This document shows positions 5,285 to 27,295 of a stretch of 28,483 nucleotides of DNA, piece by piece. The translations under genes were made by a program, and so were the position numbers. Source of the DNA: a virus; the IMG/VR virus record IMGVR_UViG_3300020055_001327, positions 1 through 28,483 of that record; one strand, 5' to 3'. Under the pieces are notes generated by a model. The model made no database searches. It was not told where the DNA came from and worked only from the letters and a program-made list of their open reading frames with translations. The number at the start of each line of letters is the position of its first letter. Positions within the stretch are counted from its first letter, which is position 1.

Positions 5285-5812
5285 ATGCAACCTATAATTG
5301 ACGACTTGGGAAATCCCCGCTTCAACTATAAATCTATCCGTGAGACTATCTACGCTGATAAGCTAGACATAGTTCATAATGTAGAGTTTGAAGCTGACGA
5401 GGATATAAATAAATTTGTTCATTACGCTGAGGAATTAGGGATTGATATGCCAAAACTTTATGAGGATTTGGATATGCCTGAAGCACAGTTCGATTGGTAT
5501 ATGAAAAGAAACTGGCTGATGCCTGAGAAGTACAAAGAGATGGATATTAGAAAATATATTCTTGAATACGATAATGGACATAATAAAGAAGGCTACTCCC
5601 GTGCTTCTATGGAACTAGCTGAGTTTGAAGCTCGAGGCTTACTTGATATGCTGCGCTATATGGTTTATCTTGTAGATGTAATGAGAGAAAATAATATAGT
5701 ATGGGGCGTGGGTAGAGGATCGAGTGTAGCAAGTTATGTGCTATACTTAATAGGAATAAATCGAATAAATCCAATGAAGTATGATTTGGATTGGCGTGAG
5801 TTTTTAAGATAA
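5285..5812 (+). CDS. DNA polymerase III alpha (DnaE/PolC)-like fragment protein, catalytically truncated
   Basis: A 175-aa protein. The C-terminal ~65 residues match the palm entry of bacterial replicative polymerase DnaE. A helix (ELAEFEARGLLDMLRYMVYL) is followed by NNIVWGVGRGSSVASYVLYL (GRGS at 143-146, corresponding to the DnaE GpGRGSaAGSlVaY motif), then IGINRINPMKYDLDWREFL (DnaE: lgIT.vdPl.ydLlFERFL). The protein stops directly after this, just before where DnaE has the catalytic PDIDxDF aspartates, so it cannot polymerise. The N-terminal ~105 residues are acidic and unrecognised. It may have been recruited as a nucleotide or host-replisome binding factor. The homology is by eye; the truncation is seen directly. 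Confidence 0.6.
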   Translation: MQPIIDDLGNPRFNYKSIRETIYADKLDIVHNVEFEADEDINKFVHYAEELGIDMPKLYEDLDMPEAQFDWYMKRNWLMPEKYKEMDIRKYILEYDNGHNKEGYSRASMELAEFEARGLLDMLRYMVYLVDVMRENNIVWGVGRGSSVASYVLYLIGINRINPMKYDLDWREFLR

Positions 5813-7554: not shown

Positions 7555-8244
7555 ATGCAAGTTCAACAGATGGAATTCGATTTCAGCCCTCAAGAGCAAG
7601 AAGGGTTTAGACAATTTATGCTCAGTATGTACAATCACACTGCAGGTGGCTTAGCTGTGAGCTTTGTTACCGCAATGTTTGTATGGAGTTCTGGATTGAT
7701 GTCCATACTGATGACTGGACCAATGTTATGGGTGACTATGTTGGCACCTCTAGGTATGATTTTCTATTACAGTTACAAAGGCGATGATTGGGATTTGAAA
7801 GCAGTAACTGCTTTCTACTATGCCTTTGTGGCTGTAATGGGCGTTGGGTTGAGTAGTGTTTTTGCTATCTTCTCTGCTAATAGCATTGTTGAAGCATTTT
7901 TAGTAACCTCACTGACATTTGGTGCTGCTAGCGCCTATGGATATATTACAAAGCGTGATTTATCTGGTATGGGTTCATTCCTAATGATTGGACTAATTGG
8001 AATTATTATTGCGTTTATTGTAAATATTTTTCTACAAAGCACGGCATTTGCATTAGCTATTAGTATAATTGGCATTGGAGTCTTTTTAGGACTGACTATG
8101 TGGGATACACAAATGGCTAAAACTATGTATGCCGAAACTGGCGATCCTCGATGGGGCGTTCGTTTTGCTCTATCACTTTATCTAAACTTTATAAATCTAT
8201 TCCAGTTGATCCTTTCTTTCACTGGTATGCGTGGCGAAGAATAA
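7555..8244 (+). CDS. Bax inhibitor-1 / YccA-family membrane protein
   Basis: A 229-aa protein, close to the usual length of the family, with about seven hydrophobic helices. Features recognised: an N-terminal cytoplasmic segment ending FRQFMLSMYNHTAGGLAVSF, a central TFGAASAYGYITKRDLSGMG (the family's G-rich third to fourth helix region), IGIGVFLGLTMWDTQMAKTM with the conserved Asp, and a C-terminal ALSLYLNFINLFQLIL helix. Family members are inner-membrane proteins with proposed ion-leak channel roles; E. coli YccA also binds FtsH and protects SecY from degradation. A phage copy could guard membranes or inhibit FtsH during infection. Ribosome site AGGA at 7544-7547. Confidence 0.85.
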   Translation: MQVQQMEFDFSPQEQEGFRQFMLSMYNHTAGGLAVSFVTAMFVWSSGLMSILMTGPMLWVTMLAPLGMIFYYSYKGDDWDLKAVTAFYYAFVAVMGVGLSSVFAIFSANSIVEAFLVTSLTFGAASAYGYITKRDLSGMGSFLMIGLIGIIIAFIVNIFLQSTAFALAISIIGIGVFLGLTMWDTQMAKTMYAETGDPRWGVRFALSLYLNFINLFQLILSFTGMRGEE

Positions 8245-9189: not shown

Positions 9190-9455
9190 GACCCATATAT
9201 AAACTAAATGATCCACCCGATTCATATGTAGTGAGAATGCCTGTGGGCAAAACTAACTACTTACAAATAATTGAATCTCTAACAACTATATTTGGTAACC
9301 CTATCAAAAATGGTTGGTATATATCTAATCGTAATGATCACGGTGCCTGGTGGGTAATACTGCTTCGTGGGAAGCCTGATAAAAAATTTACTAGACTTTG
9401 TTTAGAATATCCATGTGAAATAGTAGAAAGGGAAGATGACTTATATAGTAGATGA
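9186..9455 (+). CDS. Hypothetical protein downstream of clamp loader
   Basis: An 89-aa protein whose ATG overlaps the gp44 stop (ATGA) and whose end overlaps the ferredoxin gene by 20 nt, so it sits firmly in the operon. It is a small alpha/beta-looking protein ([39 protein letters not shown]) without recognised motifs. In T4, gene 62 (small clamp-loader subunit, ~187 aa) occupies this place, but this protein is less than half that size and I see no resemblance. Function unknown. Confidence 0.6.
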
Positions 9456-9786
9456 TAATTGTATAAAATGTAAATATATGGATTGTGTAGAAGTATGTCC
9501 TGTGGATTGCTTTTACGAAGGCGAAAATATGCTAGTCATCAGTCCTGCTGAATGTATTGACTGTGGCGTGTGCCAGCCTGAATGTCCAGCAAAAGCTATA
9601 CTACCTGAGAAAAAAGTAGATCAAAACGATAGACAATATTGGATTGACTTTAACGCAAAATATGCTGAGGTGTGGCCCAATATCACAAAGAGACGAAAAG
9701 ACGATGTTCCATCAGATGCTAAAGAATGGGATGGCGTAGAAAATAAAATAGAATACTTTAGCGAAGCCCCAGGTAAAGGAGATTAA
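9436..9786 (+). CDS. fdxA: FdxA-type 7Fe ferredoxin
   Basis: A 116-aa electron carrier. The cysteine pattern matches seven-iron ferredoxins such as Azotobacter FdI shifted by one residue: C9, C17 and C50 for the [3Fe-4S] cluster, C21, C40, C43 and C46 for the [4Fe-4S] cluster, plus the free C12 and C25. The N-terminus ([20 protein letters not shown]) and the C-terminal AEVWPNIT...[11 protein letters not shown]...GKGD segment resemble alphaproteobacterial FdxA over nearly the full length, so the protein is probably functional and relatively recently acquired. It is coupled to thyX by TAATG. Its redox partner is not evident in this window. Confidence in the family is high, in the physiological role low. 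Confidence 0.92.
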
Positions 9787-12414: not shown

Positions 12415-13115
12415 GCTTACGAAAAAACGATTTGAAATATATGATGTATGACATCTTTGAAGTAGATAACTACGGCTCAAAAATGGGCGCAGACTCAGAT
12501 GTTGTAACAGTAAATTTTAGCCTAAAAGAAAAAGATCCAGCAAAGGATTTGGTACACTTTTTAGAAGCTGGATATGATTTTATTCTCGATGCTGATGTAT
12601 CCCCAGGCGAGATGCCAGACGGAACATATAAAGTATTCGTAGAGTTTGAGCGAAACCGTCACGTAGCGGATAATATAAATGAAATGCTAGATGGTGTACG
12701 CAAAATATCTGGCGTCAATAATCTAAAATTTAGATATCACAAAAACTTTAAGAGTCGTGAAGCAACAATGGAAAATCTCTCAACTATTCCTACTGATGCT
12801 GAATCATATGAAATGGCTCGCTCACAAGTAACAATGGAAAACTTCAAGCACTTCTTTGCCGATAGTTATTCTGAAGTTGAAATGTTAGGTGAGACAATTA
12901 TTATTAAAAAGCCACATCATGACACACTGTATCTACATTTAGTTGAGATGGGCGATTCAGATAAAGTTACAATAAATGAAAAATTTAATTTAGAAGACTA
13001 TAGCGAAGTATTATACATCACAAAATATCTAAGCGGTTGCTGTACAGTTAACAAGTATGGTGAGAACATCGTTTTAGATAATAATAACAAAACTCTAATA
13101 ACAAAACGACTATGA
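12411..13115 (+). CDS. Conserved-looking hypothetical protein
   Basis: A 234-aa protein overlapping its neighbours on both sides by ATGA. It has an N-terminal helix (NDLKYMMYDIFEVDNY), then an alpha/beta region (DGTYKVFVEFERNRHVADNI, GVNNLKFRYHKNF). A C-terminal beta region carries HHDTLYLHLVEMGDSDKVTI and an isolated GCC pair. No catalytic motif recognised. It is probably a partner of the preceding Met/Gly-tailed protein, since the two are translationally coupled. Late expression is inferred from the shared upstream promoter motif. Confidence 0.6.
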   Translation: MSLRKNDLKYMMYDIFEVDNYGSKMGADSDVVTVNFSLKEKDPAKDLVHFLEAGYDFILDADVSPGEMPDGTYKVFVEFERNRHVADNINEMLDGVRKISGVNNLKFRYHKNFKSREATMENLSTIPTDAESYEMARSQVTMENFKHFFADSYSEVEMLGETIIIKKPHHDTLYLHLVEMGDSDKVTINEKFNLEDYSEVLYITKYLSGCCTVNKYGENIVLDNNNKTLITKRL

Positions 13116-13957
13116 ATTCTTTCAATTTTAGCTTTCGTTCTTCAGCAACTCAAGAGCTATTAGTAGATAATTGGGAATGGCAAGATTGGCACGTTACATT
13201 ATCTACTGAGCTACCTAAGTGGGATATAAACACTGTAGAACGTGTCTCTGGGTTTATGGCCCAATGTATGCACGAATCTGCATACTTCAAAAGATTTACA
13301 GAAAACCTAAACTACTCTGCCGCAGCATTGAATAGAGTATTCCCTAAGTATTTTATACGAGCAGGAAGAGATGCCAGTGAGTATCACAGGCAGCCAGAAA
13401 AGATAGCGAATATTGTATATGCGAATCGTATGGGCAACGGTGATGAGGCGAGTGGTGATGGTTGGAAATACAGAGGCGGTGGACTTATACAATTGACTGG
13501 TAAAGACAACTATCGTTCATTTGCTGCTGCCGTTGGAGTATCTATTGATAATGCTGTTGAATATGTTAGAACTAAGCGTGGAGCTATTGAAGCTGCTTGT
13601 TGGTTTTGGAAAGAAAACGACATAAATAGATACTGCGATAGCCTAGACATTATTGGTATGACAAAGCGTATCAATGGAGGAACACACGGGCTAGAAGAAA
13701 GAGATAGACATTTTCAACACGCACTAGATTTATTTGGTGGTGACGAACTATCTTACGATATAGATTATAATCAAATTTTACAAGTAGGATCACGAGGACC
13801 GCTTGTAGCTGACGTTCAAGAGAAGTTGGGGATAACTCCAGCAGATGGTATATACGGTCCACAAACAGTATTATACGTTCGAGAATGGCAAGACATTAAC
13901 GGATTAGTAGTAGATGGGATTATTGGACCGCAATCGTTAAAAGTATTATTAGGATAA
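13112..13957 (+). CDS. Endolysin: GH19-type chitinase/lysozyme domain plus peptidoglycan-binding domain
   Basis: A 281-aa lysis enzyme that cuts peptidoglycan glycan strands. The N-terminal GH19 fold (~1-210) has QCMHESAYF with candidate catalytic Glu55, and FTENLNYSA with Glu64. Further family segments are YANRMGNGD, KYRGGGLIQLTGKDNY and TKRINGGTHGLEER. Residues ~216-281 form a peptidoglycan_binding_1 domain (VGSRGPLVADVQEKL, then ADGIYGPQT and VDGIIGPQSLKVLL). It has no signal peptide, so release would need a holin; a two-helix candidate lies at 15351. It heads the lysis cassette, followed within three bases by the i-spanin. Confidence 0.9.
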   Translation: MNSFNFSFRSSATQELLVDNWEWQDWHVTLSTELPKWDINTVERVSGFMAQCMHESAYFKRFTENLNYSAAALNRVFPKYFIRAGRDASEYHRQPEKIANIVYANRMGNGDEASGDGWKYRGGGLIQLTGKDNYRSFAAAVGVSIDNAVEYVRTKRGAIEAACWFWKENDINRYCDSLDIIGMTKRINGGTHGLEERDRHFQHALDLFGGDELSYDIDYNQILQVGSRGPLVADVQEKLGITPADGIYGPQTVLYVREWQDINGLVVDGIIGPQSLKVLLG

Positions 13958-13960
13958 CTG

Positions 13961-14467
13961 ATGGATATTTTCAGTGGTATAAAATTTGTAGGTGCATCAA
14001 TAGTTATAGTTCTAGCTTTTTGGGCTTGGAATGAATATGACAAGTTGTCTGCTAGATTAGATGCTGCTGTAAAAAATCTAAATGTTTCTGAAGCTAATAA
14101 CGATAAACTTAAATTTACAATCGATCAACAACAAACAACTATCAAGAGGCAAATTGAGGATGCTAAAAAAGTCCAAGAAGCTAATTCTAGACTACAAGAA
14201 ACAAACAATACTTTACAAACAGAGTATAAGGATCTTGACAAACGATTCAACGAATCAGCAGGAAAGCAACGTGACATAACAGCACTTGCTATTAAGAAAA
14301 CTGCTGCCGTAGAACGTGTAATCAATAAAGCATCTGCAAATGCCTTTAGATGTGCGGAGATTGCAATGGGCTCTCCGTTAACACAAGAGGAAATAGATGC
14401 TACTAGAAAATCTCAAATCAATCCTGAATGTCCAGGTATTGCGAATCCAAACTATAATAACTATTAG
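13961..14467 (+). CDS. Inner-membrane spanin (i-spanin, Rz-like)
   Basis: A 168-aa protein with a single N-terminal membrane segment (about residues 7-24, IKFVGASIVIVLAFWAW) and a long periplasmic coiled coil (about 28-100, with heptad Leu/Ile and many Gln, Lys and Glu). A C-terminal tail contains two cysteines (FRCAEIAMG, NPECPGIAN). This is the topology of Rz-type i-spanins, which connect the inner membrane to the o-spanin and fuse the membranes at the end of lysis. Its place right after the endolysin and its overlap with a lipoprotein gene support the call. There is no sequence-level match to lambda Rz. Confidence 0.75.
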   Translation: MDIFSGIKFVGASIVIVLAFWAWNEYDKLSARLDAAVKNLNVSEANNDKLKFTIDQQQTTIKRQIEDAKKVQEANSRLQETNNTLQTEYKDLDKRFNESAGKQRDITALAIKKTAAVERVINKASANAFRCAEIAMGSPLTQEEIDATRKSQINPECPGIANPNYNNY

Positions 14468-14807
14468 TATAATATTTGTTATAGGATCTTGTACTGGAAC
14501 TTACATTGAGCCTCGCCCTATTGCGAAAGTAGAAACTGTAGTTCAAGAAGTATCTAAAACCCCTCTAAATCTACCTGACCCTAAAGTTGCTCCAATGGAA
14601 AAAGTGGAGTGGACTATTATTACGCCAGACAATCAAGAAGAAGTTTTTAAAAAACTACGAGAAAAAGGCATTGAGCCTGTAATATTTGGTTTAGCTGGTG
14701 AGAACTATGAAAATTTAGCAACAAACTTCTCACAAATTAGAGGTTACATGTTAAAACAAAGAGATATCATAACAGAATATAAAGTCTATTATGAGTATGA
14801 GGAATAA
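14397..14807 (+). CDS. Outer-membrane lipoprotein spanin (o-spanin, Rz1-like)
   Basis: A 136-aa protein starting inside the i-spanin gene in another frame (71-nt overlap), as is common for Rz/Rz1 pairs. AGAGGA at 14386-14391 sits five bases before the ATG at 14397, supporting this start. A signal sequence ends in IGSC, so Cys32 would be lipidated. The mature N-terminus is proline-rich (IEPRPIAKV, KTPLNLPDPKVAP). The rest (WTIITPDNQ, YENLATNFSQIRGYMLKQRD, TEYKVYYEYEE) resembles lipoprotein spanins I recall from T4-like marine phages. It is longer than lambda Rz1. Confidence 0.75.
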   Translation: MLLENLKSILNVQVLRIQTIITISIIFVIGSCTGTYIEPRPIAKVETVVQEVSKTPLNLPDPKVAPMEKVEWTIITPDNQEEVFKKLREKGIEPVIFGLAGENYENLATNFSQIRGYMLKQRDIITEYKVYYEYEE

Positions 14808-14810
14808 TAA

Positions 14811-15350
14811 ATGGACCCAACGAGCTTACCAGGCGCGAACCTAATTGTACAACAACAAGGACAAATGATGGACCCTTTTGATTCATTTGCTGCTCACACT
14901 ACTGATCTCATCGTTCCTTGGATAACTATTCTTATTTCTGTAATGGCAGCATTATGGCTAAAAGATTTTGCTGCTAACTTTTTAGCAGGAATTGCTTTTA
15001 GATATACATCACCATTTCAAGAAGGCGATCACGTTATTATTGATGGAGACGATGCTATGATCATCAAAGTGGGCATCAGCCAAACTGTATTTGGACGATA
15101 TAGTGATAATGGTTATACATGGAGGTATATTCCCAATGATCAGATCCACAGCGTAAAAATAGAAAAACTTGTAAGACAAGATTTACATTTGGATACTGAC
15201 ATTGAGAAAGGACAACGTATTGTAGAACTAGTTGCTAAAGCCAACGAAGCGTATGCTAAGAGAGCTTTAGAAAATAATTCAGCTTTAGCACCGCCTAAAA
15301 GGCGAGCAACTGATAGAAATGCCGACGGCAGTGAAAATGTAGGATTATAA
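14811..15350 (+). CDS. Mini MscS-like mechanosensitive channel protein
   Basis: A 179-aa protein. It has a single transmembrane helix (~33-52, LIVPWITILISVMAALWL) leading into KDFAANFLAGIAFRYTSPFQ. This corresponds to the pore-lining TM3 helix and beta-domain entry of MscS (N..AG....P...GD). Next come EGDHVIIDGDDAMIIKVGIS and YIPNDQIHS, the MscS IPNs motif. The first two MscS helices and most of the C-terminal alpha/beta domain are missing; the tail is charged and disordered. It lies within the lysis cassette. It could form a small osmotic valve, a modified lysis pore or a host-channel interactor; the fold is clear, the role is inference. Confidence 0.8.
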   Translation: MDPTSLPGANLIVQQQGQMMDPFDSFAAHTTDLIVPWITILISVMAALWLKDFAANFLAGIAFRYTSPFQEGDHVIIDGDDAMIIKVGISQTVFGRYSDNGYTWRYIPNDQIHSVKIEKLVRQDLHLDTDIEKGQRIVELVAKANEAYAKRALENNSALAPPKRRATDRNADGSENVGL

Positions 15351-15731
15351 ATGGAAACACCAAAGAAAGAAAGTATAGCACCTAGACAAGGAATTGGTAT
15401 TGAACCTTCATATGATGCCAAAGTAACCGTGCCTGCTCCAGAACAAAGTTCAAGAGGAACAAAACGAGTAAAACTAGATTTAGAAGTAGATGCTGCTGCT
15501 GTAGATGTAGGAGTTAATCCATATATAAATTGGATTCATGCTGCTCGTGCTGTAGATAGCTGGCGCATCTTCCCACGAATATTTATTACGACATACATTG
15601 TATTATTATACAAATGTGTGATTTGGTATATGGAATTACCTGAGCCATCACTTGAGCAGTCTGGATTAATCAGCATCGTTGTTGGCGCTGGTGCTGCTTG
15701 GTTTGGACTCTACTTAGGAAGCAAAAAATGA
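15351..15731 (+). CDS. Small two-helix membrane protein, holin candidate
   Basis: A 126-aa protein with a charged, disordered N-terminal half and two C-terminal hydrophobic helices (PRIFITTYIVLLYKCVIWYM and GLISIVVGAGAAWFGLYLG), ending in SKK. A small-residue-rich second helix (GAGAAWFGLYLG) and a short Lys tail fit class II-like holins or similar pore formers. I recall related proteins in marine myoviruses with the same NWIHAARAVDSWR...FPR lead-in. It follows the endolysin, spanin and MscS-like genes directly, and no other holin candidate is in the cassette. The functional assignment is moderate. Confidence 0.6.
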   Translation: METPKKESIAPRQGIGIEPSYDAKVTVPAPEQSSRGTKRVKLDLEVDAAAVDVGVNPYINWIHAARAVDSWRIFPRIFITTYIVLLYKCVIWYMELPEPSLEQSGLISIVVGAGAAWFGLYLGSKK

Positions 15732-16211: not shown

Positions 16212-17102
16212 ATGGACTATTACAAAATACTTGAAGTAGATAAATCTATTGATCCTGAGGGATTGAAGAAAGCATACAAAAAGAAAGCTATGAAACACCA
16301 TCCTGACAAGGGTGGTGACGAAGCTACATTCAAACAAATAAACGAAGCGTATCAAGTATTGTCTGATCCTGAGAAAAAGACAATGTATGATAACTACGGC
16401 ACAGCAGATCCTCAAGAGTTTCACCAACGTCGATATAATAACGGCGGTGCCGAGAACATCTTCGGAGGAATGAGATTCCATCGAACAAATGATGGTGACA
16501 TTAACTTTGATGACATTCTGAGAAACTTTTCAACTTTTGGGGCAGGTTTTAGGCAGCACCAAAGAATGCGCCCACAGAACAGAGATGTAAGAGTAAGAAT
16601 AGATATTACTCTAAAAGATTCAATATTAGGTAAAGTTGATGAAGTAACATTCAAGTTACCTAGTGGACAAATTGAGATTATACAAGTAAATATTCCTGCA
16701 GGGGTTACATCTGGGGATAAAATAAAATATACAGGAAAAGGTGAGACTACAGTACCAGATGCACCACCAGGTGATATGTATGTAGTAATAAATGTCATGG
16801 AGCAAGCTGAGTATCAAGTACAAGGGCGTGACATCCATACAAGATTATTTGTAGATATATTTGATTTTATTCTCGGATCTAAACAATTAATAACAACTCC
16901 CGACGGCACCTCTATAAATATAAGTATACCACAAGGCACAAATCCAGGAACAACTCTCAGTGTCAATGAGCACGGGATTCCTGGATTGCATGGCGAAAGG
17001 CGTGGAAAACTATTTGTAGAACTACGGTGTAAAATTCCTAGCTACAATAACAAAGAGCTAGAGCAAATTCGCAAGCTCAAAGAAAAATTAAAAAAAGATT
17101 GA
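16212..17102 (+). CDS. DnaJ-family co-chaperone (class II, CbpA-like)
   Basis: A 296-aa J-domain protein. The J domain (1-~65) has the HPD tripeptide at 30-32 ([13 protein letters not shown]) and the [15 protein letters not shown] helix. A G/F/R linker (~75-115) and two C-terminal substrate-binding beta domains follow ([20 protein letters not shown], then [20 protein letters not shown]-type segments, [20 protein letters not shown]). It has no CxxCxGxG zinc repeats, so it is class II like CbpA. It would stimulate host DnaK ATPase to aid folding of phage proteins. Its stop overlaps the -35 element of the clpA promoter. Confidence 0.9.
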
Positions 17103-17128
17103 CTAAACTGTTGATTTCATGCTATAAT
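17099..17128 (+). promoter_or_regulatory. Strong sigma70-like promoter upstream of clpA
   Basis: TTGACT at 17099-17104 and TATAAT at 17123-17128 are separated by 18 nt, near-consensus for host sigma70-type RNA polymerase. The start would lie near 17135, giving a leader of roughly 38 nt with AGAGGA (17163-17168) before the ATG at 17173. It is the only clear sigma70-type promoter I found, which suggests early expression of clpA and perhaps the following gene. Confidence 0.75.
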
Positions 17129-17172: not shown

Positions 17173-19440
17173 ATGGTAGAACCCAGTGAGGAACTAAAAC
17201 AGGTATTCGATCGAAGTGTAAAGGATGCTCGCGCCCTTGGACACGAGTATGTAACACTTGAACACTTGTTGAACAGTATTATTATGAGCGACACTATGAG
17301 CGCTCAACTTGAGGAGTATGGCGCAGATGTTGAATATATTCGCAACAGTCTAACAACTTATCTAGCAAATGAGCTGACAGACATTCAGGTTGAGAATTCT
17401 AAAATCAAGCCAAAGAAGACACAAACTGTAGAGCGAGTGCTGAACAGAGCATTTACGCAGACACTGTTTAGCGGACGTGGCACTATTGACTTGGCTGATG
17501 TTATTTTGAGCATCCTTGCTGAGAAGAAATCTCAAGCTAACTATATACTTGAGATGAGTGGCATTGAGAAAGATTCTCTAAACGAATATCTGCACGAAGA
17601 GGTAGATGAGGATGAAGAGACAGAAGAAAATGCCAACCAAGCACAGCGAGCGCTGAAGTCATTTACAACACTGCTCAATCGTGAGGCACAAAAGAATCGT
17701 ATTGATCCAGTTATTGGACGACAGGAAGAGATTGAAGCTATCGCACTAGCATTAGGCAGACGCTCTAAAAATAATGTTATTATGGTAGGCGATCCTGGCG
17801 TAGGTAAGACTGCTATTATTGAAGGCTTGGCTTGGAAGATTGTGAATAACCAAGTACCTGAGTTCCTCAAGGAATATACTGTATATAGCTTAGACATTCC
17901 TGGTTTGCTTGCTGGCACAAAATACAGAGGTGACTTTGAAGAGCGCCTCAAACTTATCCTACAAGGACTAAAGAGCAAAGGCAAAACTATTTTGTTCATC
18001 GACGAAGCACATATGATTAATGGTGCTGGTGGCGGTGGCGGGCGTGATACAAACGATCTCGCTAATATGCTAAAGCCTGCACTGAGCAAAGGCAATATTA
18101 AAGTTGTAGCTTCTACTACTTGGGAAGAGTATCGCAAAGCATTTGAGAAGGATCGTGCGTTGATGCGACGCTTCCAACGTGTAGTAGTTGATGAGCCATC
18201 AGCAGAAGTGACACTGGACATCCTCAAAGGTATCAAGAAATACTATGAGGAATTTCATAACACTGTTATTACAAACGAAGCTCTTGCTGCCGCTGTAAAG
18301 CTGAGTGTAAAATATCAAAATGATAAGAAGCTGCCAGACAAAGCTATTGATTTGATTGATCTGGCTTGCTCACGCTTCAACTTGCTAGAAGAAGTACCTG
18401 AAGTCAAAACTGTTACAGAAGATTCTATCTTCCACGAGCTGTCATTGCTAGTAAATATTCCTGAGGAGCAAGTAGCTGAGAAAGAGAACGAAACACTTGC
18501 TAACCTTGAGAAAAATCTCAAAGGCTCAGTATATGGACAGGATGAAGCTATTGACTCTATTGTAGATAAAATTATTATTGCTCGTGCTGGACTGAAGGAT
18601 GAGAATAAGCCTATTGGTAGTTTTATCTTTATGGGCCCAACTGGCACAGGTAAAACTGAAACAGCAAAGCAATTGGCTGAGCATCTGCATATCAATATGG
18701 TTCGCTTAGATATGTCAGAGTATCAAGAAAAGCATTCTGTAGCTAAATTACTTGGTCCTCCCCCAGGTTATGTTGGGTTTGAGGAAACTCCAGGCTTGCT
18801 AATCAACAAGCTACAAGAAAATCCTCATTGTGTGTTGCTGCTAGATGAGATTGAAAAAGCACACCCAGATGTTTCACAGATTTTGTTACAGTTGATGGAT
18901 AATGGTATTGTAACAGGATCAGATGGTAAGGAAGCCGACGCTCGCAATGTTATTCTTATTCTCACAACTAACTTAGGTGCTAGCGATGCTGAACGCAACG
19001 GCATTGGCTTTACTAACGAGTTTGAGTATAGCTACAGTGACGAGGAACTAAAACGATTCTTTGCTCCAGAGTTCCGTAACAGACTTGATGGTGTTATCCA
19101 GTTTGGAAGGCTGACTAAGGAAGTAATGATGAAAATTGTTGGCAAGTTCTTGTTCCAGTTGCGTGAGAAAGTAAAAGATAAGAACATTACTGTTTCTATT
19201 GATGATGCTGCTCTTGATTGGCTTGTAGCTGAAGGCTATGATGAGAAGATGGGCGCTCGTCCTCTACAACGTGTCATTGATAAAGAAATTAAGCGTTCTC
19301 TGAGTCGTGAAATGTTATTTGGCGGATTGAAGCACGGAGGCAAATGTAAAATTGTTCTAAAGAACGGAGCATTGGCAATTCGTATTACGCAATCCTTTAA
19401 ACCCAAAACGGAGGAAAAAGTTGAGGCGAATAGCAACTAA
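17173..19440 (+). CDS. clpA: ClpA-like AAA+ unfoldase with ClpP-docking IGF loop
   Basis: A 755-aa hexameric unfoldase, the same size as E. coli ClpA (758 aa). It has a Clp N-domain (HEYVTLEHLLNSI near residue 24-36) and D1 with Walker A GDPGVGKT (206-213) and Walker B ILFIDEAHMI. D2 has Walker A GPTGTGKT (488-495), Walker B VLLLDEIEKAHPD, and the conserved PEFRNRLD and GYDEKMGARPLQRVI sensor 2. There is no ClpB-type middle coiled coil. IGF at 611-613 lies where ClpA and ClpX carry the IG(F/L) tripeptide that docks ClpP, so it could direct host ClpP. No clpP is seen here. Preceded by its own sigma70-like promoter. Confidence 0.92.
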   Translation: MVEPSEELKQVFDRSVKDARALGHEYVTLEHLLNSIIMSDTMSAQLEEYGADVEYIRNSLTTYLANELTDIQVENSKIKPKKTQTVERVLNRAFTQTLFSGRGTIDLADVILSILAEKKSQANYILEMSGIEKDSLNEYLHEEVDEDEETEENANQAQRALKSFTTLLNREAQKNRIDPVIGRQEEIEAIALALGRRSKNNVIMVGDPGVGKTAIIEGLAWKIVNNQVPEFLKEYTVYSLDIPGLLAGTKYRGDFEERLKLILQGLKSKGKTILFIDEAHMINGAGGGGGRDTNDLANMLKPALSKGNIKVVASTTWEEYRKAFEKDRALMRRFQRVVVDEPSAEVTLDILKGIKKYYEEFHNTVITNEALAAAVKLSVKYQNDKKLPDKAIDLIDLACSRFNLLEEVPEVKTVTEDSIFHELSLLVNIPEEQVAEKENETLANLEKNLKGSVYGQDEAIDSIVDKIIIARAGLKDENKPIGSFIFMGPTGTGKTETAKQLAEHLHINMVRLDMSEYQEKHSVAKLLGPPPGYVGFEETPGLLINKLQENPHCVLLLDEIEKAHPDVSQILLQLMDNGIVTGSDGKEADARNVILILTTNLGASDAERNGIGFTNEFEYSYSDEELKRFFAPEFRNRLDGVIQFGRLTKEVMMKIVGKFLFQLREKVKDKNITVSIDDAALDWLVAEGYDEKMGARPLQRVIDKEIKRSLSREMLFGGLKHGGKCKIVLKNGALAIRITQSFKPKTEEKVEANSN

Positions 19441-21533: not shown

Positions 21534-21869
21534 ATGAGATTATTTGAAGTAGATGCAGAACTATCTAAAAAGATTCCTTGGGATCTAGTAGAAGATACAC
21601 TTATATACATGCGTAACGAACCTATGTTTTATCGCAGGGAATATTATCCTGTTATGACTCAGCTTGCTGATTCTCATAGAGCAAAAAGTTCTAGCAATGT
21701 TCGAGAAATGATTATGCCTCTTATCAATAAAGGTATAAATGCTTACTGTAAAAAATACAATCTAGCTGCCATGCCTGACGATGTTTTTGGTGAGGATACT
21801 CGTAACAAGCTATTTGATAAAATTTATAACGAAGAGATTGAGCAAATTAAGAAAGGCGAATATCAGTGA
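21534..21869 (+). CDS. Small helical hypothetical protein
   Basis: A 111-aa protein beginning MRLFEVDAELSKKIPWDLVE, then YMRNEPMFYRREYYPVMTQL and a helical C-terminus. The start at 21534, five bases after the previous stop, is preferred over an ATG at 21459 inside the preceding gene. Its MRLFEV opening resembles the LFE(A) and ELF segments at the domain starts of the next gene. The GTGA overlap with the giant gene means the two are translationally coupled. No function recognised. Confidence 0.6.
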   Translation: MRLFEVDAELSKKIPWDLVEDTLIYMRNEPMFYRREYYPVMTQLADSHRAKSSSNVREMIMPLINKGINAYCKKYNLAAMPDDVFGEDTRNKLFDKIYNEEIEQIKKGEYQ

Positions 21870-23575
21870 TACTCCGTGAGCTTTTTGACAAACCTGCAAA
21901 ATGGGTAGAAGTCGATAATGACATGGGCTTTGCCTATCAGTTTCAAACTAAAGATGGCAAAGGATACGAAGTTACACTAGATGTAGATGACGACTTTGTA
22001 TATGAAGTTATATTTGCAGATGAGGCTGGACGAATTGATTTGACTGGAGCTGGCAATGCTGCTGAAGTAATAGGCACAGTAATAGCTATTCTTAAGGCCC
22101 ACGTCAAAGAACACAATTTGCCTGATCTTTCTTTTTCTGCAGAAGCAAAAGAACCTTCCCGAGTAAGGTTATACACTACATTAGTAAACAAGCTATCTGG
22201 CGATATGGGCTATGAAGTAGAAGCTATCAACCATATGGGTATGAAAAGTTGGAAGCTCACTAAGAAACAAAACGAAAACATAAACGAACTTTTCAATAAG
22301 CCTCTCAAATGGTGGACGGACAAAGAGCAAATGGACTCAGCCCGTTATGGCTTTACTACAACAGATGACAGAAACTTTTCAGTAGAATTTGATCAGGAGC
22401 CAAACGGCGAATGGGAATTCGTATTCATGGATGCTAATGGGCGAATGGACCTTACTGGAGGCGGAGGCGCTGTAGAAATATTTGCTACAGTAAAAGAAGT
22501 TGCTCTACACTTCTTCAAAAAATACAAACCAAAAGATCCTGTATACTTCCAAGCTGACACTGGCGAGCCTAGTCGTGTAAAAATGTACCAAAGAGCAGCC
22601 AAAATGATTAGCAGTGAGTTGCCTGCTTATAAAGTTATAACAAATAAACAACACAATGCATATTCTTTTTTGATTGTGCCAGCAGATTCTGATGAATGGG
22701 ATTGGCAACAAAGCGAAAGCATACAAGTAAATGAACTACTGGATCAGCCACTGCCATACCAAATACGTGACGACGATGACGATTGGAAAGCATATAATTT
22801 CAAAACTTCTGATGGTAGAAAATTTACAGTAGTAATGGATCTGCTCCCTCAAGATTACTGGGACATAGCATTTACAGATAACAACATGAGCTCTTCCAAA
22901 ACTGGTAGAGGTAGTGCTGTAGAAATATTTGCTACAGTTGGCGCTATCATAAAAGAATTTATTAAGAAAACTGATCCACGAATGATAAAGTTTTCTGCTA
23001 TAGATAACGAGCCATCTCGAGTAAAGCTATACAAACGTCTAGCGGCGATGGGAGCAAAGACATTCCCACAATACAATTTAGATGTTCGCCAAGCAGCAGG
23101 CGGAGCTGACTTTATACTCAAGAAAGAAGAACAACAAGAAGAAAATCTAAACGAACTATTCAATCAGCCACTGAAATACAATAAAGTAGTGCCGAGAGCA
23201 TCTGACTCAGGCAGAAAAATTATGTGGAGATTTGACACCCCTAAAGGTAACAGAATACAAGTAGAAGCATATAAGTCGCAAAATTATAATAAATGGGAAT
23301 TTGGATTCTACGATTTTGAAGATGACAATCCGCATATAACTGGCAAAGGCGATGCTGCTCAGGTATTTGCTACTGTTATAGCGATCGGTGAAGAGTTTGT
23401 AAAAGATGTAAAGCCTGACATGGTTGAATGGTTTGCTGATAATGACGAACCAAGCCGTGTAAGCCTTTACGATAGAATGGTTAAGACACTCGCTAGACGT
23501 ATGCCAAACTATGAAATAAAATCGCAAGATACTGGCGGGTCGTTTCAACGCTATGTAATGATTAGAAAAGATGCT
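21866..23575 (+). repeat. Four tandem ~140-codon repeats within the giant gene
   Basis: Repeat units correspond to nt 21866-22288, 22289-22735, 22736-23155 and 23156-~23575. Each begins ELFDKP-like (RELFDKPAKW, NELFNKPLKW, NELLDQPLPY, NELFNQPLKY), then an aromatic/acidic beta part, then the TGxGxA...TV helix and the EPSRVxxY segment. The copies are strongly diverged at both DNA and protein level, so the duplications are old and maintained by selection rather than recent slippage. Confidence 0.8.
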
Positions 23576-26500
23576 GAGGAAGAATCTATGTATGAAAGCA
23601 TTGAACGAGACTTAGAAGAATTTATTTCGCAAAATCAACTAGGTGAGATTGAGCGAGGGCTTGACGGCATATTTAAGAAAAATAATATTGATGTACAATT
23701 TACTCGACACTTTTTTGATAGACTAAATGATGAAAGAAATGTTAGAATTGGTGGTTCTGAAATTACAAGCGGGGAACTAGTAAGGCTATTTAAACAAGAA
23801 CAAAAACGATGGGGCAAGTCATTACAGGCTTTACCTGATAATGAAGAAGGGGTAATGAAAGATAAAAAAACAAATATAAATGTTCCGTTTATCAAAAAAA
23901 ATACACCAGATTCACAACCAGACAAAGTTATTACAAAAACTATTATGAAAAAGCCTAACTTCAAAAGTGATACTCCGTTCTATCCTGTAGAAAGTAAGCA
24001 AAGATTAACACTAAGAAGTTTATTTGAAGCTCCTAGCAAAACTGCTGCCTTTGCGTTTGGTAGATTAAATCCTGCTACAAACGGACACGAACTATTAGTA
24101 AATGAAATTGTCGCACAAGATGCTGATTCATTTCTTTATTTGTCTGACAGGCCGGCAGCTCTTCCAAAGGATCCGCTTGAGCCGAAAGAAAAACAAGCAT
24201 GGGCACAAGCATCTTTTCCACAAATTCAAGTAAAACTTGCTAACAATGCTTTACTTGCCGCAGACGAGTTATATAAGATGGGTTATACAAATCTTATATA
24301 TCTAGAAGGCGAACCTAAAATGGGCAAAGTTATACAAAAGTATAACGGACAAGAAACTGCAAAGCATTTCTTTAATTTTGACAATGTAAACCTTGTTCAG
24401 CTTACACGTGATCCTGATGCTGAAGGAGCTACTGGTATGAGTGCTACAAAGCTACGACAAACGGTGATTGACGATGACTTTGAAGCATTTACGCAAGGTA
24501 TCACAAAACCAGCACAGCGGGTGGCTAAGGAGATGTTTGAGAAGCTAAGAGGAATTCTTACACAAGATGAATCTGTTGAGGAAGCGCACGGCAATTCCTC
24601 TATCTATGATAAATGCTGGAAAGGCTATCATAAAAAATTAGGAGCAACTAGAGGATCAAAAGGCTCTTGTGTAAAAAATGAATCAGCAGCAGGACCACCG
24701 TCGGGTGATTATGCTGCCTATAAAAAGTCCATAGGAGCATCTTCAGCAGCAGGTCCATCGGCTAGTAAGGACGAACCAAAAGAACCAGATGTAAAATGGA
24801 CAAGAGGTTTATTCGATCACATATTTACAGATGAGAAGCCTGGTAATCCATTCATTGATCCATCTTCCCGCAAAGCATTTATTCCAATGGTAGCATCTAC
24901 TATCAATATTTTGTCAGGCGAGAATAAAAGAACAATGTATGGCGCTCATGTGCTTGGAATAAAAGATATTCCAAAGCTAATAGCATTACAAGGTAAAAAA
25001 GGCAAACAAATATCTGCTTTTACTACAGACGAGTACGGTGATTTAGAAACAGGACTATGGACAGAAGGCGGTATTATAGCTATCATAAAAGGCGTAGCTA
25101 TGTCAGGCGGTCCTGGTGATATTATGTCTAAAGTAGATAAACAAGGACGTAGAGTTGTAGATTTTGGACCTAGATCCCCTGCTATGAATAACATTGGCAA
25201 AGTGGCAGATTCTAAAGCATTCCAAACAGCAATACAAGAAATAATAAATGCTAGAGTATCAATCGCTAAAGAGTTACAATCTAAATTTTCTAACTATAGT
25301 GAAATAGATGGTAAGACTAAGCACGAAGCAATTAAAAAATATATGGATGCTGTAAATGCTACGCTAACAAACAATAAAAAAGTTATGCAAAAAGCTATGA
25401 CAGCTTGGGCAGAGAATCAGGGTAAAAAATGGAGTAATAATACTGAGTACGGCGAATATGATGAAATTGTAATGGGTAACTTCAAAATAATAAAATTATT
25501 TGTAAAACCTAACGGCAATGATAATATGCAACAAACTTATCAGTTTAGAGACTACTTTGAAAATAATGATTTTCCATTTCCTGTTGAATATGTAAGAGAT
25601 ACTAACAAACAACATTTAAAAAGATTCTTGGATCAAAATGTTGAAGAAAGTTTAGAAGAATTTAAAATTGTAAAACCAGATTCTAAAGATACTATGGGCA
25701 TTACAAGAGATAAAATGCCACAAATTAAAAAAGAGAACTATGCCGAACTTATTAACTTTCTAAAAGAAAATGGAGCAACATACAGTAAAAAGTCAGTTCC
25801 AGCAAAGCAGTTGAAGCCTATACAAAAAGAATTTTCAGATGCTGGGGTAGAAAAATCAATAGAAAAACGTAAAATTAAAAAACCTATTATTGCTGCACAA
25901 GATGGTTATATTATTGACGGACATCATCGTTGGTTAGCGGCACTTAATTTAAATTCTAAAGTTGATATTTTAGAGTTTAATACATCTGGTAAAGAATTAT
26001 TACAACTTGTATTAGACTTTCCTAAAACATATTTTAAACCTATTCACGAATTTGATAAAAAGAAAAAGCCAGCTATCAAAGAAAACGATGACGATTTTGA
26101 TGATGACGGTAACAGAATACCTATAGGAGCAGACGAAGCACCTAAATGGACAAGAAGTTTATTCGATCATTTGTTTATAAAGAAAGGCAATAAGTACGAT
26201 CCTGAGAGACCATATACAAAAGGAGATAAAGAAGTCTTTATCCCACTTGTACCTGCTATGATTGATAAACTAGTTGGTGGTCCTACAGAATTGTATGGAG
26301 CGCATTCAACTGGCACACAAAACTTGGATCGTCTAATACAAATGCAAAACAAAAAGGGCAAGCAAATATCCGTATTTACTACTGACAGAGAAGGACAACT
26401 ATCTGATGGTGTATGGGGCGGGGGTGGCGTTGTAGCTATCCTACGTGGCAATGCGTATGCTTCTAGCACTGGCGATATTATGTCTGTAGTAGATAAGCAA

Positions 26501-27295
26501 GGGCGTAGAGTATTAGACATTGGTCCTAGTGGAGACTTGATGAATCTCGAGGACAATGAAGATTTCCTATACGGAGATGATTATCCAAATATGTATAAGG
26601 AAATCCGAAACTTACAAAGATCCATTACTGCTAAAATAGAAGACATAATTGACGAGCGTGGAGATGTAGAAGGCAAAGAAAAAGCAGCCTTTATCAAAGA
26701 ATATATTGATGGTTTATATGCAGTTATACCTAAGTATAGAAAAACATTCTCAAAACTAATGGTAGGATGGGCACAATCACAAAATAAAAAATGGCAAGAG
26801 GTACACGGAACATATGACGAAGTTGTAATGGGTAACTACAAAATTGTTCATATATTTTTAGTAGGTAAAGATAGACAAAAAGTAAGTCAATTAGAAGACT
26901 TTATGCGTGAAAAGGCTATGGGCTATGTACGAAAGCCTGGCGAAGGTATGGTAGAGGATCCTGCTGTCAAAAATCCATTCTTAGAACAGCTATATAAAGC
27001 AGGCAAGCTCAAGCTAATTGATAAAACTGAAGAAGATTTCCCATATCAAGTTTTAGATACATATATGAAACGAAATAAAGAAATGGGAGAGTCATTAGAC
27101 TATGCTAGAAATTATTCACTAGGTAAGTTACTAGAAACAGCATCAGGCGGAACATCATCAGCTGGCAATATTGCCACTGTAGTCAATCCTCCAAAAGGCA
27201 AAAAGAAATCTAAAACACATAACCCAGACGGCACTATTAAGAATGCACTTGATAGCGATGACAATCTTATGGGCGGTACACTAATACGACGATAA
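21866..27295 (+). CDS. Giant mosaic protein: 4 tandem repeats, nucleotidyltransferase, ParB-like and duplicated unknown domain; candidate head polyprotein
   Basis: A 1,809-aa protein starting at GTG (GTGA overlap). Layout: four ~140-aa repeats (1-141, 142-290, 291-430, 431-~570), each with TGxGxA..(I/V)(I/F)xTV and EPSRVxxY; an FTRHFFDR(L)N domain (~570-710, motif at 612-619); a HIGH-type nucleotidyltransferase (~713-905; FGRLNPATNGH ending His741, TGMSATKLR 856-864); a small YDKCWKGY module (~914); an unknown domain A (~976-1250) with WTRGLFDH, KKGKQIS and VDKQGRRV; a ParB/Srx-like domain (~1265-1400, IIDGHHRW at 1349-1356); unknown domain B, a diverged copy of A (~1426-1690); and a Lys-rich tail ending LMGGTLIRR. 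INE, VNE and LNE (139-141, 288-290, 428-430) sit exactly at the repeat joints, resembling prohead-protease sites. Function inferred, not shown. Confidence 0.8.
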   Translation: MILRELFDKPAKWVEVDNDMGFAYQFQTKDGKGYEVTLDVDDDFVYEVIFADEAGRIDLTGAGNAAEVIGTVIAILKAHVKEHNLPDLSFSAEAKEPSRVRLYTTLVNKLSGDMGYEVEAINHMGMKSWKLTKKQNENINELFNKPLKWWTDKEQMDSARYGFTTTDDRNFSVEFDQEPNGEWEFVFMDANGRMDLTGGGGAVEIFATVKEVALHFFKKYKPKDPVYFQADTGEPSRVKMYQRAAKMISSELPAYKVITNKQHNAYSFLIVPADSDEWDWQQSESIQVNELLDQPLPYQIRDDDDDWKAYNFKTSDGRKFTVVMDLLPQDYWDIAFTDNNMSSSKTGRGSAVEIFATVGAIIKEFIKKTDPRMIKFSAIDNEPSRVKLYKRLAAMGAKTFPQYNLDVRQAAGGADFILKKEEQQEENLNELFNQPLKYNKVVPRASDSGRKIMWRFDTPKGNRIQVEAYKSQNYNKWEFGFYDFEDDNPHITGKGDAAQVFATVIAIGEEFVKDVKPDMVEWFADNDEPSRVSLYDRMVKTLARRMPNYEIKSQDTGGSFQRYVMIRKDAEEESMYESIERDLEEFISQNQLGEIERGLDGIFKKNNIDVQFTRHFFDRLNDERNVRIGGSEITSGELVRLFKQEQKRWGKSLQALPDNEEGVMKDKKTNINVPFIKKNTPDSQPDKVITKTIMKKPNFKSDTPFYPVESKQRLTLRSLFEAPSKTAAFAFGRLNPATNGHELLVNEIVAQDADSFLYLSDRPAALPKDPLEPKEKQAWAQASFPQIQVKLANNALLAADELYKMGYTNLIYLEGEPKMGKVIQKYNGQETAKHFFNFDNVNLVQLTRDPDAEGATGMSATKLRQTVIDDDFEAFTQGITKPAQRVAKEMFEKLRGILTQDESVEEAHGNSSIYDKCWKGYHKKLGATRGSKGSCVKNESAAGPPSGDYAAYKKSIGASSAAGPSASKDEPKEPDVKWTRGLFDHIFTDEKPGNPFIDPSSRKAFIPMVASTINILSGENKRTMYGAHVLGIKDIPKLIALQGKKGKQISAFTTDEYGDLETGLWTEGGIIAIIKGVAMSGGPGDIMSKVDKQGRRVVDFGPRSPAMNNIGKVADSKAFQTAIQEIINARVSIAKELQSKFSNYSEIDGKTKHEAIKKYMDAVNATLTNNKKVMQKAMTAWAENQGKKWSNNTEYGEYDEIVMGNFKIIKLFVKPNGNDNMQQTYQFRDYFENNDFPFPVEYVRDTNKQHLKRFLDQNVEESLEEFKIVKPDSKDTMGITRDKMPQIKKENYAELINFLKENGATYSKKSVPAKQLKPIQKEFSDAGVEKSIEKRKIKKPIIAAQDGYIIDGHHRWLAALNLNSKVDILEFNTSGKELLQLVLDFPKTYFKPIHEFDKKKKPAIKENDDDFDDDGNRIPIGADEAPKWTRSLFDHLFIKKGNKYDPERPYTKGDKEVFIPLVPAMIDKLVGGPTELYGAHSTGTQNLDRLIQMQNKKGKQISVFTTDREGQLSDGVWGGGGVVAILRGNAYASSTGDIMSVVDKQGRRVLDIGPSGDLMNLEDNEDFLYGDDYPNMYKEIRNLQRSITAKIEDIIDERGDVEGKEKAAFIKEYIDGLYAVIPKYRKTFSKLMVGWAQSQNKKWQEVHGTYDEVVMGNYKIVHIFLVGKDRQKVSQLEDFMREKAMGYVRKPGEGMVEDPAVKNPFLEQLYKAGKLKLIDKTEEDFPYQVLDTYMKRNKEMGESLDYARNYSLGKLLETASGGTSSAGNIATVVNPPKGKKKSKTHNPDGTIKNALDSDDNLMGGTLIRR
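24791..26935 (+). repeat. Duplicated unknown domain flanking the ParB-like domain
   Basis: Copy A spans about 24791-25615 and copy B about 26141-26935. Shared landmarks in order: KWTRxLFDHxF, VFIPLV/AFIPMV, YGAH, KKGKQIS(A/V)FTTD, GGxVAIL/GGIIAII, GDIMSxVDKQGRRV(L/V)D, MxxWAxxQxKKW and YDE(I/V)VMGN(F/Y)KI. The ParB-like domain is inserted between the copies. The arrangement implies domain duplication followed by insertion, or modular assembly. Confidence 0.75.

Follow-up and report, generated by a model that had tools for sequence, protein, structure and literature searches.

The clpA gene of this virus probably supplies the ATPase/unfoldase for a ClpAP(S) protease that the phage itself encodes. 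ClpA, a ring motor, unfolds proteins and passes them on to ClpP for degradation. What can be read from the sequences is that the motor is intact and the docking motif invariant, that the dnaJ-clpA neighbourhood is conserved, that relatives of the phage encode ClpP and ClpS, and that phage ClpA forms a clade separate from the bacterial proteins. The window, by which we mean the whole stretch of DNA analysed, is an entire IMG/VR record of 28,483 b, and that record is a fragment of a large tailed phage. The gene and its parts lie as follows.

17173..19440, plus strand: clpA, 755 aa, ATG start; N-domain and two AAA+ rings (D1, D2)
17173..17598, plus strand: N-domain, approximately residues 1-142; Clp_N (PF02861), one repeat over cut-off
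17788..17811, plus strand: D1 Walker A GDPGVGKT, residues 206-213
17920..17931, plus strand: D1 pore-1 loop KYRG, residues 250-253
17989..18006, plus strand: D1 Walker B ILFIDE, residues 273-278
18634..18657, plus strand: D2 Walker A GPTGTGKT, residues 488-495
18766..18777, plus strand: D2 pore-1 loop GYVG, residues 532-535
18835..18849, plus strand: D2 Walker B LLLDE, residues 555-559
19003..19011, plus strand: putative ClpP-docking tripeptide IGF, residues 611-613, in a predicted flexible loop (609-620)

An earlier note on this DNA had described a full-length ClpA with both Walker sets intact, and this description is borne out by profile searches. The 755-aa product matches the NCBIfam ClpA profile TIGR02639 over residues 5-727 (866 bits) and PHROG 4871, ‘ATP-dependent protease’, over residues 5-740 (822 bits), a full-length match to that family profile. 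Because the TIGR02639 score falls under the curated equivalog cut-off of 993 bits, the window protein is regarded as a divergent relative and is not filed as a bacterial ClpA equivalog. Its best solved relatives are the E. coli ClpA structures 1ksf and 1r6b (660 bits), and an AlphaFold model (mean pLDDT 82, pTM 0.53) finds ClpA/ClpC structures, including 1r6b, 6w24 and 7uiy, as its top Foldseek matches. The Walker A and B motifs of D1 and D2, the pore loops, the arginine fingers and sensor 2 are all present and near-invariant among relatives, while the N-domain varies more than D1/D2 (1.15 vs ~0.6 bits per column). Like E. coli ClpA (1ksf, 1r6b; ClpAPS 7uiv-7uj0), the window protein shows the N-D1-D2 order, the pore loops and a flexible IG(L/F) loop at the same column, at nearly the same length (755 vs 758 aa); it differs in having IGF rather than IGL and a divergent N-domain, and E. 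coli ClpA falls outside the phage clade described below. ClpB and ClpC are likewise Hsp100 two-ring ATPases, but they possess a middle domain and score lower: the window protein is co-linear with ClpA over 5-727, while its ClpB/ClpC matches are split, the middle domain being absent. To our knowledge, ClpB carries no docking motif.

The IGF at 611-613 does lie in the D2 docking loop, as had been claimed. In the alignment, ERNGIGFTNEF of the window protein stands opposite ERKSIGLIHQD of E. coli ClpA, placing IGF on the docking tripeptide IGL. The model has pLDDT <50 across 609-620, a predicted flexible segment that resembles the flexible IGL loop of E. coli ClpAPS, residues 610-628 (PMC9663308). 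Across the window protein and 80 IMG/VR relatives (62-74% identical), IGF is kept in 81/81, while loop positions 604-605, 610, 614-617 and 619-620 reach entropies of 1.9-2.8 bits in the same sequences and the IGF codons vary freely across the clade (3 Ile, 4 Gly and 2 Phe codons). An invariant tripeptide with variable flanks and varied codons argues that conservation acts at the protein level; as judged from these alignments, the motif is under purifying selection in the window clade, and the window ClpA very likely docks some ClpP. The expected conservation of IGF among related phage ClpAs thus holds inside the window clade but does not extend across all phage ClpAs. Among isolates, Phosso, Atu_ph07 and PA5oct have IGF and Salicola phage SCTP-2 has IGY, while Vibrio 2.275, RaK2, 121Q, GAP32, XbC2 and Kaldavass show IGV, IGM, LGM or MGM, and a 735-kb phage (L089, LR756501) has QGM.

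It is on the identity of the ClpP partner that we part from the earlier note, which reasoned that, with no clpP nearby, the protein looks able to commandeer host ClpP. The premise is true of the window, since clpP was not found anywhere in the 28,483-b record, including the 17 kb upstream of clpA. The conclusion does not follow, because the record is a 28-kb fragment, which probably accounts for the missing gene, and in large relatives ClpP and ClpS are both phage-encoded, at other places in the genome. Own ClpP (PF00574) is present in 10/11 large ClpA-bearing phage genomes (9/10 of an initial set, plus SCTP-2), and own ClpS likewise in 10/11 (again 9/10 plus SCTP-2), the single exception being the 735-kb phage, which is without both. 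The clpA and clpP genes are not neighbours. Among 20 mostly partial window-clade IMG/VR contigs, ClpP-family matches occur in eight (including a weak one of 94 bits) and ClpS in four; the sole window-clade record >300 kb carries both. ClpP was not found in three relatives of 85-156 kb, which are probably fragments; the 156-kb one appears to belong to the same phage as a contig of 357 kb having both ClpP and ClpS.

As a control, 11 further jumbo phages were picked by hand, with strong ClpP defined as >100 bits. One of them, SCTP-2, proved to have ClpA, ClpP and ClpS. In the ten without ClpA, ClpS was found in none (0/10) and strong ClpP in one (1/10), phage G, where it adjoins that phage’s ClpX. 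Counted by lineage, ClpS occurs in 8/9 with ClpA vs 0/9 without (Fisher p 0.0004) and strong ClpP in 8/9 vs 1/9 (Fisher p 0.003), figures that are rough, as the lineages are not independent and the panel is small and hand-picked. SCTP-2 was chosen because it was already listed with ClpP; dropping it gives 7/8 vs 0/9 for ClpS and 7/8 vs 1/9 for ClpP. A leucyl/phenylalanyl transferase (Aat), which would make N-degrons, was found in none of 16 records.

The phage ClpPs themselves retain the Ser-His-Asp triad in 16/16 sequences compared. With docking-pocket positions numbered from what we take to be the E. coli ClpP numbering, the window-clade ClpPs (G002, G008, G012, G014, G017, G018 and G019) are bacterial-like at these positions, as for instance in VLFSYYFIMKLV of G008 vs VLFAYYFIMFLL of E. 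coli. In the RaK2/GAP32/Vibrio lineage, on the other hand, the pocket is changed (V44K/N, F49W/Y, L114G/T), and the phages with a drifted ClpP pocket are those with a drifted ClpA tripeptide. Such co-drift of loop and pocket fits the docking of phage ClpA on phage ClpP, though it counts as approximately one evolutionary event, the drifted phages being essentially one lineage. In E. coli ClpX, the F270L substitution severely weakens ClpP binding (PMC7112951), yet E. coli ClpA itself has IGL, so the effect of this residue is context-dependent. In E. coli, ClpX docking depends critically on ClpP Arg192 (PMC7112951), but this residue varies among bacteria too and was therefore dropped as a docking marker. 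In the handle region, PA5oct (L107) and three window-clade ClpPs (L119, L120, L121) share an insertion of ~10 residues after the catalytic histidine. For ClpS, presumably N34, D35, T38, M40 and H66 are the N-degron sites of the E. coli protein and E79 and K84 its ClpA contacts; at these positions, window-clade ClpS proteins largely keep the N-degron residues, and likewise E79 and K84.

These comparisons bear directly on whether the phage ClpA might instead dock host ClpP, with or without phage ClpP mixed in, and so redirect the host barrel to new substrates. IGF is canonical, bacterial ClpP pockets are very similar to those of the window-clade phages, and the 28-kb record is without clpP, all of which would suit such an arrangement. 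We nonetheless consider it unlikely, given that nearly all large ClpA phages have a ClpP of their own and that, in the phages of E. coli, Klebsiella and Cronobacter, the tripeptide has drifted to IGM, IGV or LGM along with the phage ClpP pocket, which is unexpected if canonical host ClpP were the partner.

The surroundings of clpA also bear on its function, and the window genes and signal concerned are these.

6390: GroES-like gene
8275: clamp loader gene
10951, minus strand: phoH
16212..17102, plus strand: dnaJ-type co-chaperone gene; J domain and DnaJ_C, without a zinc-finger match; conserved upstream neighbour of clpA
17099..17128, plus strand: putative sigma70-like promoter TTGACT-18-TATAAT, a consensus match only, in the dnaJ-clpA gap, 44 b before the clpA ATG
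17173: clpA

This order repeats that of the Pseudomonas jumbo phage PA5oct, and the window clamp loader shares 53% identity with its counterpart in the PA5oct group. The sigma70-like promoter that had been proposed, as an early one, before clpA is found as a consensus match (11/12 positions, with TG preceding the second hexamer), and a scan for such promoters found sequences agreeing with the consensus at 11-12 of 12 positions upstream of clpA in 14/81 loci. A peptide deformylase gene stands between dnaJ and clpA in 35/80 relative loci (L004, L005, L009 and 32 others) and in phage Phosso, suggesting a possible link from N-terminal processing to ClpS-type N-degron proteolysis; it is absent between the window’s dnaJ and clpA.

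In 72/72 relatives with at least 1 kb of upstream sequence, dnaJ lies a short way upstream of clpA on the same strand. An Hsp70 search in 15 records found one in the 735-kb phage only, and host DnaK is therefore assumed to be the partner of the phage DnaJ. A DnaJ close by at every such locus, together with tail and virion genes nearby, could point to a ClpA that works mainly without a protease, as a chaperone that joins DnaJ and host DnaK in unfolding or disaggregating, for instance, virion proteins, and a role of this kind has been suggested for jumbo-phage ClpA (PMC7824862). The 735-kb phage would suit it best, combining a QGM ClpA with its own full-length Hsp70 and neither ClpP nor ClpS; its ClpA is perhaps a protease-free disaggregase. 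For the window protein we find this account improbable, since strict conservation of IGF in its clade makes most sense with ClpP docking and since it lacks the middle domain through which ClpB contacts DnaK.

Docking on a phage-encoded ClpP is also in keeping with descent. In the ClpA tree, a quick search whose starred supports count for less, 17 window-clade rows group at 100 (starred), and these together with nine isolate phages form one phage clade of 26 rows at 99 (starred), apart from 18 bacterial ClpAs; the long-branched row of the 735-kb phage is the only phage row outside it. The ClpP tree separates the two kinds more weakly: a branch of moderate support (81/92) has the 16 phage rows to one side. 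Both trees fit long residence in phages and shared inheritance. That clpA is instead a recent, functionless capture from a host is barely credible. Its apparent support was the top match in a phage collection, at 46% identity, which is an Acinetobacter ClpA in a bacterial contig misfiled as phage; the single phage clade and the invariant catalytic columns rule such a capture out. The entry concerned, ‘Acinetobacter phage MD-2021a’ (L083, CAKLQF020000008), was accordingly rejected as closest relative, being bacterial chromosome (rpiA, argC, clpS-clpA, aroF).

Phage ClpA is already known in RaK2-like and other jumbo phages, and the parts of the system are known one by one. Agrobacterium phage Atu_ph07 has been reported with ClpA, ClpP, ClpS, ClpX and a DnaJ (PMC6102473); its ClpA (gp292) shares IGF with the window protein and is directly preceded by dnaJ (gp293), as in the window, but the two ClpAs are 39% identical and Atu_ph07 has its own ClpP and ClpS, and also ClpX. 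PA5oct ClpA (EST35_0298) shares IGF and the GroES-like, clamp loader, phoH (minus strand), dnaJ, clpA order at 41% identity, and differs in that ClpX is present and that ClpP and ClpS lie 13 kb and 21 kb upstream; the PA5oct paper (PMC6950013) contains nothing on Clp. RaK2, 121Q and GAP32, which have their own ClpP and a weak ClpS match, resemble the window in having a full-length ClpA and depart from it in their IGV/IGM/LGM/MGM tripeptides, drifted ClpP pocket and clpA without an adjoining dnaJ. A jumbo-phage survey suggests that ClpA may serve in translocation or assembly and lists ClpP or, ‘instead’, ClpS in others (PMC7824862), while Clp is unmentioned in the main text of the huge-phage survey (PMC7162821). 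New here, at the level of sequence comparison, are that ClpP and ClpS go together with ClpA, that phage ClpAs form a clade of their own, and that loop and pocket vary in step.

Several other features of the window merit record. A lysis-like cassette at 13112-15731 comprises an endolysin, a TM plus coiled-coil i-spanin-like ORF, a lipobox-bearing small ORF, an MscS-type beta-domain protein (PF00924, 22.8 bits, just above cut-off; a mechanosensitive-channel fragment is unusual there) and a small membrane ORF; in SCTP-2 (L259), too, a spanin-like pair (TM plus coiled coil; lipoprotein-like ORF) adjoins clpA. At 7555-8244 lies a Bax1-I/YccA-like membrane protein (PF01027, 171 bits); as E. coli YccA is a modulator of FtsH, this may be a second proteolysis-related gene. 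A ferredoxin with two 4Fe-4S motifs and DUF3470 is encoded at 9436-9786. In the 1809-aa ORF at 21866-27295 a 410-450-b unit occurs four times at the 5' end; the ORF also has a second repeat pair 1356 b apart and a DUF6934 match, and looks like fused repeat modules. A free-standing piece of DNA polymerase III alpha (PF07733) at 5285-5812 parallels group 2.2 jumbo phages, in which Pol III alpha is split (PMC7824862).

The mechanism we propose for the phage-encoded protease is that six ClpA copies would form a two-ring motor whose KYRG and GYVG pore loops grip substrates and whose IGF loop joins it to a barrel of ClpP. As a rule that barrel would most likely be made by the phage, from a gene in another part of a genome several hundred kb long, and a phage ClpS adaptor would select N-degron substrates; the adjacent DnaJ probably cooperates with host DnaK, the two acting on these same clients in unfolded or aggregated form. 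The carriage of clpP and clpS by this particular phage is presumed, as are the assembly of the proteins, their substrates and the timing. More broadly, a large environmental jumbo-phage clade may co-inherit an entire N-degron protease (ClpA, ClpP and ClpS) that is distinct from bacterial Clp, with co-evolving loop and pocket and linked to a dnaJ-(peptide deformylase)-clpA block, a proposition that we advance tentatively and judge slightly less likely than not.

Such a system raises the directly testable question of whether these motors use their own barrel, the host barrel or both, and the docking loops offer a natural series of variants, from IGF through IGM/LGM to QGM. Inhibition or borrowing of host proteases by phages is known; a phage with motor, barrel and adaptor would have an independent regulated protease in the infected cell, one reserved to the phage that could work regardless of what happens to host ClpP.
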